This document shows positions 41,030 to 47,673 of a stretch of DNA of 64,000 bases, piece by piece; within the stretch, counting starts at the first letter, position 1, and the number at the start of each line of letters is the position of its first letter. The notes beneath the pieces were generated by a model. That model searched no databases. It had not been told where the DNA came from and saw only the letters and a program-made list of their open reading frames with translations. Source of the DNA: Fusobacterium varium (lineage in GTDB: Bacteria > Fusobacteriota > Fusobacteriia > Fusobacteriales > Fusobacteriaceae). The translations under genes and the position numbers were made by a program. Where the stretch lies: the NCBI GenBank assembly GCA_002356455.1, contig AP017968.1, forward strand, positions 3,844,001 to 3,908,000, given 5' to 3'.

Positions 41030-41689
41030 TTAGAAATTGAATTTGTACCCAATTGATAGTGTTACTCTTGAATAGTCTAAATCATCTTTAATTCTTTCAT
41101 TATAATTATTCATTTCTACTTTAGCTTTATTTATTTTATACATTAAATCTATTACAAAATTATTATACTCAGCTCCTGCACCAATTCCATAATATAATCC
41201 ATTTTCTACTTTTGTAAGAAGCTCTCTTGAATAACCAGGTTCACTAGCTTTTGAAGATGCAGTTTTAATAACTTTAAAGTTCCCCCTTTCATCATTAAAT
41301 GAATATCCTAAATCTGCTTTTAAATATGGTTTAATATTTCCTTTCACAGGAATGTTATACTTAGCTGTTATATATATAGGAACTGATTTATAACCAGACA
41401 TTTCATATTTTTCACTAAAGTTATTAGAACTTGTTTTAGGGTCACCATGATCTTGATAAGATAATCCAAATCCTAGTTCTAAATTAGAATATACCTCTCT
41501 CATTACTTCCACTGTCAGTTCATAACCAAAATCATCTCCCTTTTCTTTATTTAATTTTAAGGTATTATATTTTGTCTCATCAAATCTTTGAAGTATATCT
41601 GCTCCTGCTTTTAAATATACATTTGTTCCTTCTGCTGCCAAGCTTACACATGATAATGCTGCTAATCCTAATAATACTTTTTTCATCAT
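41030..41689 (-). CDS. Outer-membrane beta-barrel protein 1 (phase-variable candidate)
   Basis: 219 residues. The signal peptide MMKKVLLGLAALSCVSLAAEG is followed by amphipathic strands alternating aromatic and polar residues (VYLKAGADILQRF, YGIGAGAEYNNFVIDLMYKI), ending SRVTLSIGYKFNF with the terminal Phe recognised by the BAM machinery. The size fits an eight-stranded barrel of the OmpA/opacity type. It is paralogous to 46684-47379. I start it at ATG 41689 because the same ribosome site AAAGGAGAG precedes both. No fixed strong promoter was found; the best one lies in the invertible segment at 41792-41951 and points away. Confidence 0.88.
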   Translation of the reverse strand: MMKKVLLGLAALSCVSLAAEGTNVYLKAGADILQRFDETKYNTLKLNKEKGDDFGYELTVEVMREVYSNLELGFGLSYQDHGDPKTSSNNFSEKYEMSGYKSVPIYITAKYNIPVKGNIKPYLKADLGYSFNDERGNFKVIKTASSKASEPGYSRELLTKVENGLYYGIGAGAEYNNFVIDLMYKINKAKVEMNNYNERIKDDLDYSRVTLSIGYKFNF

Positions 41690-41765: not shown

Positions 41766-41977
41766 GTTCTTCTTTAGGTATAAAAGCGAACTTTTAATTA
41801 AATATATTTCATATAAAAATTCTGTTTTTAAGTTTTTTTTAAAAAAATTTTTAAAATAAAATTTAAATTTCATTTGCTTAACTATGTATTTTGTGTTATA
41901 AAATTAATATAGAAATATAGATTGTTTTGCTCTGTTTGTTTATAAATTTATGTTCGCTTTTATACCTAAAAGGGAAC
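41766..41977. promoter_or_regulatory. Putative invertible promoter upstream of barrel gene 1
   Basis: Two 26-bp sites at 41766-41791 and 41952-41977 lie in inverted orientation. Their inner 19 bp are exact reverse complements (left TTTAGGTATAAAAGCGAAC). Each site is itself a dyad of form GTTC-N18-GAAC. Between them are 160 bp holding a plus-strand promoter, TTGCTT (41874-41879), 17 bp, TATAAA (41897-41902). As assembled it points towards the terminator at 42011-42045, away from the barrel gene; inversion would aim it at the gene. The same design occurs at 47462-47673. Inversion itself is inferred. Confidence 0.75.
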
Positions 41978-42010
41978 TCTTGATATTTTTTAATTTTTGC
42001 GAATAAATTA

Positions 42011-42045
42011 AAAAGACCAGTTGACAATTTATCAACTGATCTTTT
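42011..42045. terminator. Terminator after brnQ, facing the invertible promoter
   Basis: AAAAGACCAGTTGA (42011-42024) pairs with TCAACTGATCTTTT (42032-42045). It ends brnQ on the minus strand and, on the plus strand, would stop transcripts from the OFF-oriented promoter. Confidence 0.85.
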
Positions 42046-42054
42046 CATATTTTG

Positions 42055-43350
42055 CTATTCTTCTACATCTAAAACCTTTGTTTTTACTATAAATAACCCT
42101 ATTATCATCCCTACTATTGATGGTACAAGCCATGCAAATCCATACTCAGATAAAGGCATCTTGCTTAAAATTATTTTAAATACAGGAATATCCAACCCAC
42201 CATTTACTAAAGTTTCCATTAGGCTAAAAAGAGATGCCATTAAAACTCCACCCTTAAAAGGTCCATCATTTGGAAGGAATTTTTTTATCAAACCTAAAAA
42301 AGTTATTACTATACATATTGGATAAATTACAGCAAACATAAAGGAAGCATACCCAACAATTCTATTGACTCCAAGAATTCCCAGTGCCCCTCCAACTATA
42401 CATACAACTATAAGCCACACTGAATATTTTATTTTCCCTTTTGTAAATTCTTCAACAAATTCTCCTGCTATAGTAGCTATTCCTATTCCTGTAGTCAGAC
42501 AAGCGAGTATGACAATAATTGCCAGAACTCCTGACCCTGCCTTCCCAAGAAGCTGTTCTACAAGAACTATCAGCATTGTTGCCATGGACATATCTGAAGT
42601 TACAAATTCATGTCCCGTTGCTCCTAAGTATAGCAATCCTATGTAGATAACTGTTAATCCTATAATAGCAACCAAAGCTGTAATATATATTCCCATATTT
42701 ATTTGTTCTTTTTTTATTTCCCCATCTCTTAGGGCATTAAAAAATAAAGCTGCACACATCAAGCCCAAAGTCAAATCCCCTGTGTTATACCCAGTTATAA
42801 GAGCATCCACAAAAGGTTTTTTTATTTCTGTTGGAATTGGTGTTCCTATTGGTTTAATAACTGCTGCTGCAACTATTATCAGCAACGCAATTAAAAGTGC
42901 TGGTGTCAGATATTTTCCAATTTTATCTACTACCGAATTGGCATCTTTAGCTATAAAGAATACAATTATAAAAAATATAAATATTGTTACTGGCATTGGT
43001 ACTTTGTCAGTTAATGCTCTAATTCCCATTTCATGCGTTGTTGCTGCTAATTTTGGCATAGTTGAAGTCATTGCAAGCATCAAAACCATTATCAGATAAA
43101 AAAAATTATAAAACCAAGGTGCAACAGGATTTAAAACATTTTTTACATTACCTCCAGAGTTATTCACTGCAATTACTGCAATTACTGGAAGTAATATCCC
43201 AGAACAGAATAATCCAAATGAACCTGACATCCATGCTGTTCCACTTACAAATCCTATTCCAGGTGGAAATATTAAATTTCCTGCTCCAAAAAAAGTTGAA
43301 AAAAGAGCAAACCCAACTACTATTCCTTTCTTAATTACCTTACTGTCCAT
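42055..43350 (-). CDS. brnQ: Branched-chain amino acid:cation symporter BrnQ
   Basis: 431 residues, about twelve membrane helices; imports Leu, Ile and Val with Na+ or H+. The conserved FALFSTFFGAGNLIFPPGIG near the N-terminus (in part) and later CLTTGIGIATIAGEFVEE are typical of the LIVCS family. It follows the amidohydrolase gene by 29 bp and is probably transcribed with it from the sigma-54-type promoter at 45028-45042, so uptake and breakdown may be linked. Confidence 0.93.
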   Translation of the reverse strand: MDSKVIKKGIVVGFALFSTFFGAGNLIFPPGIGFVSGTAWMSGSFGLFCSGILLPVIAVIAVNNSGGNVKNVLNPVAPWFYNFFYLIMVLMLAMTSTMPKLAATTHEMGIRALTDKVPMPVTIFIFFIIVFFIAKDANSVVDKIGKYLTPALLIALLIIVAAAVIKPIGTPIPTEIKKPFVDALITGYNTGDLTLGLMCAALFFNALRDGEIKKEQINMGIYITALVAIIGLTVIYIGLLYLGATGHEFVTSDMSMATMLIVLVEQLLGKAGSGVLAIIVILACLTTGIGIATIAGEFVEEFTKGKIKYSVWLIVVCIVGGALGILGVNRIVGYASFMFAVIYPICIVITFLGLIKKFLPNDGPFKGGVLMASLFSLMETLVNGGLDIPVFKIILSKMPLSEYGFAWLVPSIVGMIIGLFIVKTKVLDVEE

Positions 43351-46683: not shown

Positions 46684-47379
46684 TTAAAAATTAAATTTAT
46701 ATCCAACTGATAATGTTACTCTTGAATAATCTAAATCTTTCTTAAATCTCCCCTCATCTGTATTGGCTTTTATTTCAGCTTTATTTATTTTATACATTAA
46801 ATCTATTACAAAATTATTATACTCTGCTCCAGCTCCTATTCCATAATATAGCCCATTTTTTATTTTTACTGAAACTTTTTCATCCTCAAAATAATCATAT
46901 GTTGCGTCTGAACCTCTAAAAGTATATTTAGCATCTCCATTATCACTATTAAAAGAATATCCTAAATCAGCTTTTAAATATGGTTTGATATTTCCTTCTA
47001 CTGGAAAGTTATACTTAGCTGTTACATATAAGGGAACTGATCTAAAACCTGGAATTTCATATTTTTCATATCCTGTGCCAATGGCACCTCCATCTCCTTC
47101 AAATTCTCCACTTTTTTTTATAGATTTTGGATCTCCATGATCCTGATAAGATAATCCAATCCCTAACTCAAAATTGGGATAAACTTCTCTCATTACTTCC
47201 ACTGTAAGTTCATAACCAAAGTCATCCCCTTTATCTTTGTTTAGCTTTTCTCCATCATATTTTACCTTATCAAATCTTTGGAACATATCTGCCCCTGCTT
47301 TTAAATATACATTTGTTCCCTCTGCTGCCAAACTTACACATGATAATGCTGCTAATCCTAATAATACTTTTTTAAACAT
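46684..47379 (-). CDS. Outer-membrane beta-barrel protein 2 (phase-variable candidate)
   Basis: 231 residues, paralogue of 41030-41689. The signal peptide MFKKVLLGLAALSCVSLAAEG and the strands near both ends are almost identical, including TNVYLKAGAD and GLYYGIGAGAEYNNFVIDLM, ending VTLSVGYKFNF. The central loops differ and are longer (for example GSDATYDYFEDEKV), as expected for surface-exposed variable loops. I start it at ATG 47379 behind AAAGGAGAG. The upstream segment 47462-47673 is a second putative invertible promoter, also pointing away. Confidence 0.88.
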   Translation of the reverse strand: MFKKVLLGLAALSCVSLAAEGTNVYLKAGADMFQRFDKVKYDGEKLNKDKGDDFGYELTVEVMREVYPNFELGIGLSYQDHGDPKSIKKSGEFEGDGGAIGTGYEKYEIPGFRSVPLYVTAKYNFPVEGNIKPYLKADLGYSFNSDNGDAKYTFRGSDATYDYFEDEKVSVKIKNGLYYGIGAGAEYNNFVIDLMYKINKAEIKANTDEGRFKKDLDYSRVTLSVGYKFNF

Positions 47380-47461: not shown

Positions 47462-47673
47462 GTTCTCTTTTGTGTATAAAAGCGAACTTTTTAATATTTT
47501 TAATTTTACATTAAAAATAGTTTTAAAGGTATTTATAAGTACTTTAAAAAGAATTGAATACAAATTCGAATTGATTAATTGGAGATTTTATGTTATAAAT
47601 AAGTATAGGATTAGATAGTATTTTAATCTCTTTTTATATAAATTTATGTTCGCTTTTATACACAAATAGGAAC
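47462..47673. promoter_or_regulatory. Putative invertible promoter upstream of barrel gene 2
   Basis: Inverted 26-bp sites at 47462-47487 and 47648-47673 share a perfect 19-bp arm (left TTTGTGTATAAAAGCGAAC) and the GTTC-N18-GAAC form. They bound exactly 160 bp, the same as at barrel gene 1. Inside, TTGATT (47571-47576), 17 bp, TATAAA (47594-47599) points plus, away from the barrel gene. The arms differ from those of locus 1 at two adjacent central positions, and both arms carry the change. Confidence 0.75.

Follow-up and report, generated by a model that had tools for sequence, protein, structure and literature searches.

The window analysed here (64,000 nucleotides of the Fusobacterium varium Fv113-g1 genome) contains, upstream of a gene for an outer-membrane β-barrel protein, a promoter-bearing segment enclosed by two inverted sites, here called switch A. 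Its features, in window coordinates, are as follows.

41030..41689, minus strand: outer-membrane β-barrel gene 1, 219 aa (PF13505, OMP_b-brl, E 6.7e-13), predicted to be controlled by switch A
41766..41791, plus strand: left recombination site of switch A, on the gene side, matching a genome-wide site family
41792..41951, no strand assigned: putative invertible segment A, 160 bp, with homologous segments in the related genomes G008, G009 and G010 and at switch B
41874..41902, plus strand: promoter in segment A (TTGCTT, 17 bp, TATAAA, TG-extended -10), conserved in five homologous loci
41952..41977, minus strand: right recombination site of switch A, inverted, with the 6-bp centre AGGTAT as in the left site
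42009..42047, both strands: terminator-like hairpin (z -4.0 on the plus strand and -7.9 on the minus strand)

The left site of switch A reads GTTCTTCTTTAGGTATAAAAGCGAAC (41766-41791), and the right site (41952-41977) reads GTTCCCTTTTAGGTATAAAAGCGAAC on the other strand. These inverted 26-bp sites are identical at 23 of 26 positions with a perfect run of 19 bp, and the original prediction of two such sites with a 19-bp perfect arm enclosing 160 bp was exact in its coordinates. When the surrounding 2 kb were shuffled 200 times under a Markov model, the longest inverted repeat at the same spacing averaged 10 bp and never exceeded 13 bp. Together with the control counts for the site pattern (below), these shuffles rule out a chance repeat. 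Switch A has the arrangement of an inverton, i.e. inverted repeats around a promoter-bearing segment upstream of a gene.

We found the promoter elements of segment A at 41874-41879 (TTGCTT) and 41897-41902 (TATAAA), with TG preceding the -10 element. This plus-strand promoter is directed away from barrel gene 1, which lies on the minus strand; this is the OFF orientation. A consensus promoter scanner did not report it because it accepts only T as the sixth base of the -10 element, and matches resembling promoters in the region were not above those in shuffles. By a strict promoter score margin the state of switch A is ambiguous; the promoter is conserved nonetheless, and we accepted it because of this conservation in five homologous loci. 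A brnQ-like gene (42055-43350, minus strand) ends at the same hairpin as segment A faces, so the hairpin probably terminates transcription in both directions. Barrel gene 1 has its start codon at 41689, its stop at 41030 and a good ribosome-binding site, and 76 nt separate the switch A site from its ATG. Hence, the locus was assembled OFF as originally described, with a TTGCTT-17-TATAAA promoter pointing away from the barrel gene, a real terminator hairpin beyond it (placed at 42011-42045 and here found on both strands) and a leader beyond the site close to the 75 nt first estimated.

The original prediction had also suggested that more 26-bp sites might be sought in the genome. A DNA search of F. 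varium Fv113-g1 (G000) found many partial site matches, paired about 150 bp apart, and a degenerate site pattern matched 47 times on the forward and 54 times on the reverse strand, compared to 2 and 2 for a reversed-pattern control. In G008, G009 and G010, there were 26-36 matches per strand and 0 for the control. Our script recovered 27 inverted site pairs in F. varium, or 28 with the imperfect pair L065b, and three further pairs have a degenerate partner (L058, L073 and L074), which gives about 28 to 31 in total. Within each of the 28 pairs, the 6-bp centres are identical. Among 12 Fusobacterium species genomes, the sites occur in F. varium, G008, G009 and G010, and the others have 0 or 1 match. 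Similarly, a strict site-pair pattern searched in 98 Fusobacteriota genomes was found in these same four, and the other 94 lack it.

Most of the F. varium switches face autotransporters of 1000-1400 aa (PF03797). Targets were assigned automatically, with those of L072 and L161 set by hand. The other targets are a FadA operon, a CHASE-GGDEF protein, an MBOAT acyltransferase, a glycosyltransferase, a sugar transferase, outer-membrane barrels, a chain-length-regulator-like protein and HU-like proteins. The original claim that the switch serves a surface protein holds up; the family faces mainly autotransporters and also outer-membrane barrels. The CHASE-GGDEF diguanylate cyclase (L059:6499-7845) has an invertible promoter in front of it, in the OFF state, and c-di-GMP signalling may be phase-variable too via this enzyme. 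Small HU-like gene pairs (PF00216) follow many autotransporters (L061:10029-10584, L063, L114, L116, L142, L149 and others), and several switches directly precede HU-like genes; these proteins might assist inversion as accessory factors or act as silencers. In many autotransporter leaders (L060-L072), a motif of approximately GAATTNGAGNT is conserved after the gene-side site.

Segment orientations were compared in the frame of the downstream gene. We found that the G008 segment at L130 aligns with the inverted L131 segment with a score of 123.5, compared to 32 in the same orientation and a shuffled maximum of 46, and the flanks outside the sites align in the ordinary direction. In G009, L145 is inverted relative to its paralogues, e.g. 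L151 (70.5 versus 18), and its promoter (TTGACT-17-TATTAT) points toward its autotransporter; L178 is likewise inverted relative to L154 (88 versus 61). These close copies with matching flanks, seen in both orientations, show that the site family inverts. Regulator operators around a fixed promoter, with no inversion, would be a different account of the paired sites, and one that fits a single orientation in all five homologues of the window locus and an OFF state at about 90% of callable loci; for the family it is rejected by the segments inverted between close copies with conserved flanks, and a regulator needs no centre identity within a pair while centres vary between loci. We consider it highly improbable. 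The invertible promoter that had been proposed is thus supported through its family, with both orientations present at L130/L131, L145/L151 and L178/L154, whereas the window locus itself is seen only OFF.

Promoter calls placed 65 of 71 clear switches OFF and 6 ON, with 17 of 88 ambiguous. Since the callable switches show this OFF bias, a free 50:50 flip is excluded. With about 90% OFF, switching may be rare, biased or condition-dependent, and the bias would reflect either a recombinase with a preference for OFF, like FimE of E. coli, or the loss of ON cells in culture.

In the sites of L060, L061 and L064-L072, outer (TTTAAT/TTATAT) and inner (GG/AG) arm alleles are shuffled among copies. We rejected simple inversion as the source of the mixed outer-arm alleles because they are shuffled independently of segment orientation; the mix in these autotransporter copies is probably due to exchange between copies.

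For the centres, site pairs in the four genomes were taken by arms and spacing alone, with the centre ignored, and partner sites were compared; the loci had been collected by likeness to the site family, so the arms were selected for and the centres were not used. We found positions 11-16 identical between partners in 73 of 76 pairs, or 73 of 74 genuine ones, as the three exceptions comprise two mis-paired sequences and one hybrid locus (G010 L168:8644). Centres vary between loci (ATGTAT, ATACAT, ATATAA, ATCTAT, ATAGAT, ATGGAT, GTGTAT, GTATAT, AGGTAT and others). Partners match at position 13 in 96% of cases versus 42% when permuted, at position 14 in 96% versus 57% with shuffled partners, and at positions 11 and 16 in 97% versus 81% and 73% when permuted. 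Positions 9 and 10 are exactly at background and position 20 is near it (46% versus 37%). The matched stretch has a sharp 5' edge; matching is raised at position 17 as well, which makes seven bases possible. Six matched bases with arms free to differ are the mark of a tyrosine recombinase whose overlap spans 6 bp, and the sites have the short dyad arms and the matched overlap of 6-8 bp of Xer/Fim-type sites.

A real switch driven by a Hin/Mpi-type serine invertase, with 26-bp sites and a 2-bp overlap, has only a very slight chance of being correct. The 26-bp length and the central asymmetric dinucleotide do resemble hix sites, and F. varium encodes small serine recombinases both on plasmid C3 (200 and 220 aa) and on the chromosome (231 aa). 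However, partner matching spans six positions rather than two, and G008, G009 and G010 carry the sites with one large serine recombinase each (456-504 aa) and no small serine invertase; small enzymes, near the 190-200 aa of such invertases, are found in G000 and in none of these three genomes.

The only genuine switch with unlike centres (ATACAT and ATCTAT), G010 L168:8644-8820, sits between one switch of each centre type. It probably arose as a hybrid when tandem autotransporter loci recombined, and it is predicted to be locked OFF.

Four neighbouring pairs of F. varium switches lie less than 15 kb apart, and in all four the centres differ, with 21% identity expected at random. Hence, insulation between neighbouring switches is suggested: diversified 6-bp centres may keep neighbouring switches from recombining, although four pairs are a hint and no result.

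The original prediction had proposed searching the genome for a tyrosine or serine recombinase, and we found both classes in F. varium, including 13 PF00589 matches. All four site-bearing genomes contain a group of 198-aa tyrosine recombinases that consist of the catalytic domain only (PF00589). The type-one enzyme (C1:3156432) has an identical second copy (C1:3237238) and relatives 80-90% identical in G008, G009 and G010; the type-two enzyme (C1:1631168) lies beside FadA-type genes and is 96-97% identical in G008 and G009. Only the four genomes with the sites have relatives that reach 74% identity to these two chromosomal types. Across the remaining 57 genomes of the family, identity to the closest relatives does not exceed 57%, and no sites were found there beyond single pattern matches. 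Hence, the enzyme is assigned to the tyrosine type, because the overlap is 6 bp, 198-aa enzymes are present in all four genomes, and a small serine invertase is absent in three. The 198-aa tyrosine recombinases are the best invertase candidates, by their co-occurrence with the sites in what may be a single clade. The tyrosine-recombinase form first attributed to the sites is supported by the matched 6-bp overlap and by this recombinase content.

A third tyrosine recombinase of 190 aa (C1:1916836) is 92-96% identical in all four genomes and has distant relatives in siteless species. We demoted it as an invertase since its conserved surroundings, with an HU gene next to it, recur in species that lack the sites. 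Most stretches surrounding the candidate recombinases have no switch sites; one recombinase copy is 3.5 kb from a switch. The genes for the identical 198-aa recombinase, C1:3156432 and C1:3237238 (L071 and L076), lie 81 kb apart in copies of one stretch, which also carries transposase-like genes and encodes a predicted secreted protein of 368 aa.

The window contains a second switch, B, before a paralogue of barrel gene 1.

46684..47379, minus strand: outer-membrane barrel gene 2, paralogue of barrel gene 1, predicted to be controlled by switch B
47462..47487, plus strand: left recombination site of switch B, centre GTGTAT
47571..47599, plus strand: promoter in segment B (TTGATT, 17 bp, TATAAA), OFF orientation
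47648..47673, minus strand: right recombination site of switch B, centre GTGTAT

Switches A and B and their homologues in G008, G009 and G010 form a set of five. The centre is identical in both sites of each, and it reads AGGTAT in A, GTGTAT in B, GTATAT in G009 and G008, and ATGTAT in G010; arm positions 5-7 mostly differ. All five are OFF, and comparison of the window locus across its homologues in the three related genomes gave no opposite orientation. A scan of genome collections with the barrel protein and with a site-pair pattern (which recovers 20 of the known loci) gave no second F. varium strain, in collections that may leave out near relatives. The uniform OFF state could mean that switch A is a relic locked OFF in a family that inverts elsewhere. 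This is unlikely in our judgement, since both switch A sites keep conserved arms, the promoter is conserved in all five homologues, and each of the five keeps identical 6-bp centres though the centres differ between them.

Taken as a whole, we hold with high confidence that 41766-41977 is a phase-variable promoter switch, flipped by a FimB-like tyrosine recombinase and one of about 28 in a regulon. What we infer from the DNA sequence is that the window locus inverts, which recombinase acts on it and that orientation sets expression ON or OFF. In the proposed mechanism, a tyrosine recombinase (C1:3156432 / C1:3237238, or the paralogue C1:1631168) would bind the approximately 10-bp arms of both sites, and strand exchange across the 6-bp overlap (site positions 11-16) would flip the 160-bp segment. 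In the assembled orientation, the promoter would fire away from barrel gene 1 into the terminator (OFF); after inversion, transcription would start near 41834 and give barrel gene 1 a leader of about 145 nt (ON). The approximately 28 switches would act as a regulon of autotransporters, FadA adhesins, outer-membrane barrels, a diguanylate cyclase, HU-like proteins and polysaccharide genes.

Three known systems invite comparison. FimB and FimE, which act on E. coli fimS, are catalytic-domain-only tyrosine recombinases of about 200 aa, and fimS has an OFF bias. Mpi of Bacteroides fragilis is a serine recombinase. The Fusobacterium switches resemble fimS in having a promoter on a short invertible segment before a surface-protein gene, small recombinases and an OFF bias; fimS (an invertible promoter with FimB and FimE, as cited in PMC11868660) is, however, a single locus with adjacent recombinase genes, whereas Fusobacterium has about 28 loci and candidates elsewhere on the chromosome. 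Like the Mpi capsule promoters, the family would be a regulon of invertible promoters at many loci that shapes the surface of a gut anaerobe, but its overlap and recombinase set suggest a tyrosine enzyme, and proteins are targeted more than capsules. Seven invertible elements are cited for B. fragilis in PMC7241687. The tyrosine recombinase RecV of Clostridioides difficile acts on several short regulatory inversions (flgB operon, cmrRST, pdcB and pdcC), with about seven described (PMC7241687, PMC7446863, PMC9286219). Both systems have scattered short regulatory segments, and RecV targets include surface structures and c-di-GMP enzymes; in contrast to RecV, the Fusobacterium switches belong to another phylum, comprise more loci, serve mainly autotransporters and all use a single site family whose 6-bp centres have diversified. 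In the open-access literature, we found no description of the Fusobacterium switch family, though the PhaseFinder survey (Jiang 2019), which covered 54,875 genomes as cited in PMC11868660, may list some of the loci. Multi-locus inversion is already known from Mpi and RecV; the Fusobacterium switches are a system of this kind in another phylum, with a larger number of loci and different targets.

F. varium Fv113-g1 was isolated from an ulcerative-colitis patient and has 44 autotransporters and 13 FadA paralogues (PMC5720691). Tentatively, and at a little under an even chance, a clade of Fusobacterium would have a promoter-inversion regulon that ranks among the larger ones run by tyrosine recombinases, at about 20-30 switches per genome, with centres diversified for insulation and adhesins kept mostly silent by the OFF bias, which would leave few surface adhesins displayed per cell at once. 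The site family yields two or three candidate recombinases and, in one strain, about 28 predicted switches that PCR can test directly. If many adhesins are set ON or OFF by a recombinase through inversion, the number of adhesin genes would be a poor guide to those present on a cell, and the switch state would need to be recorded with any data on expression, adhesion or immune responses for these bacteria.
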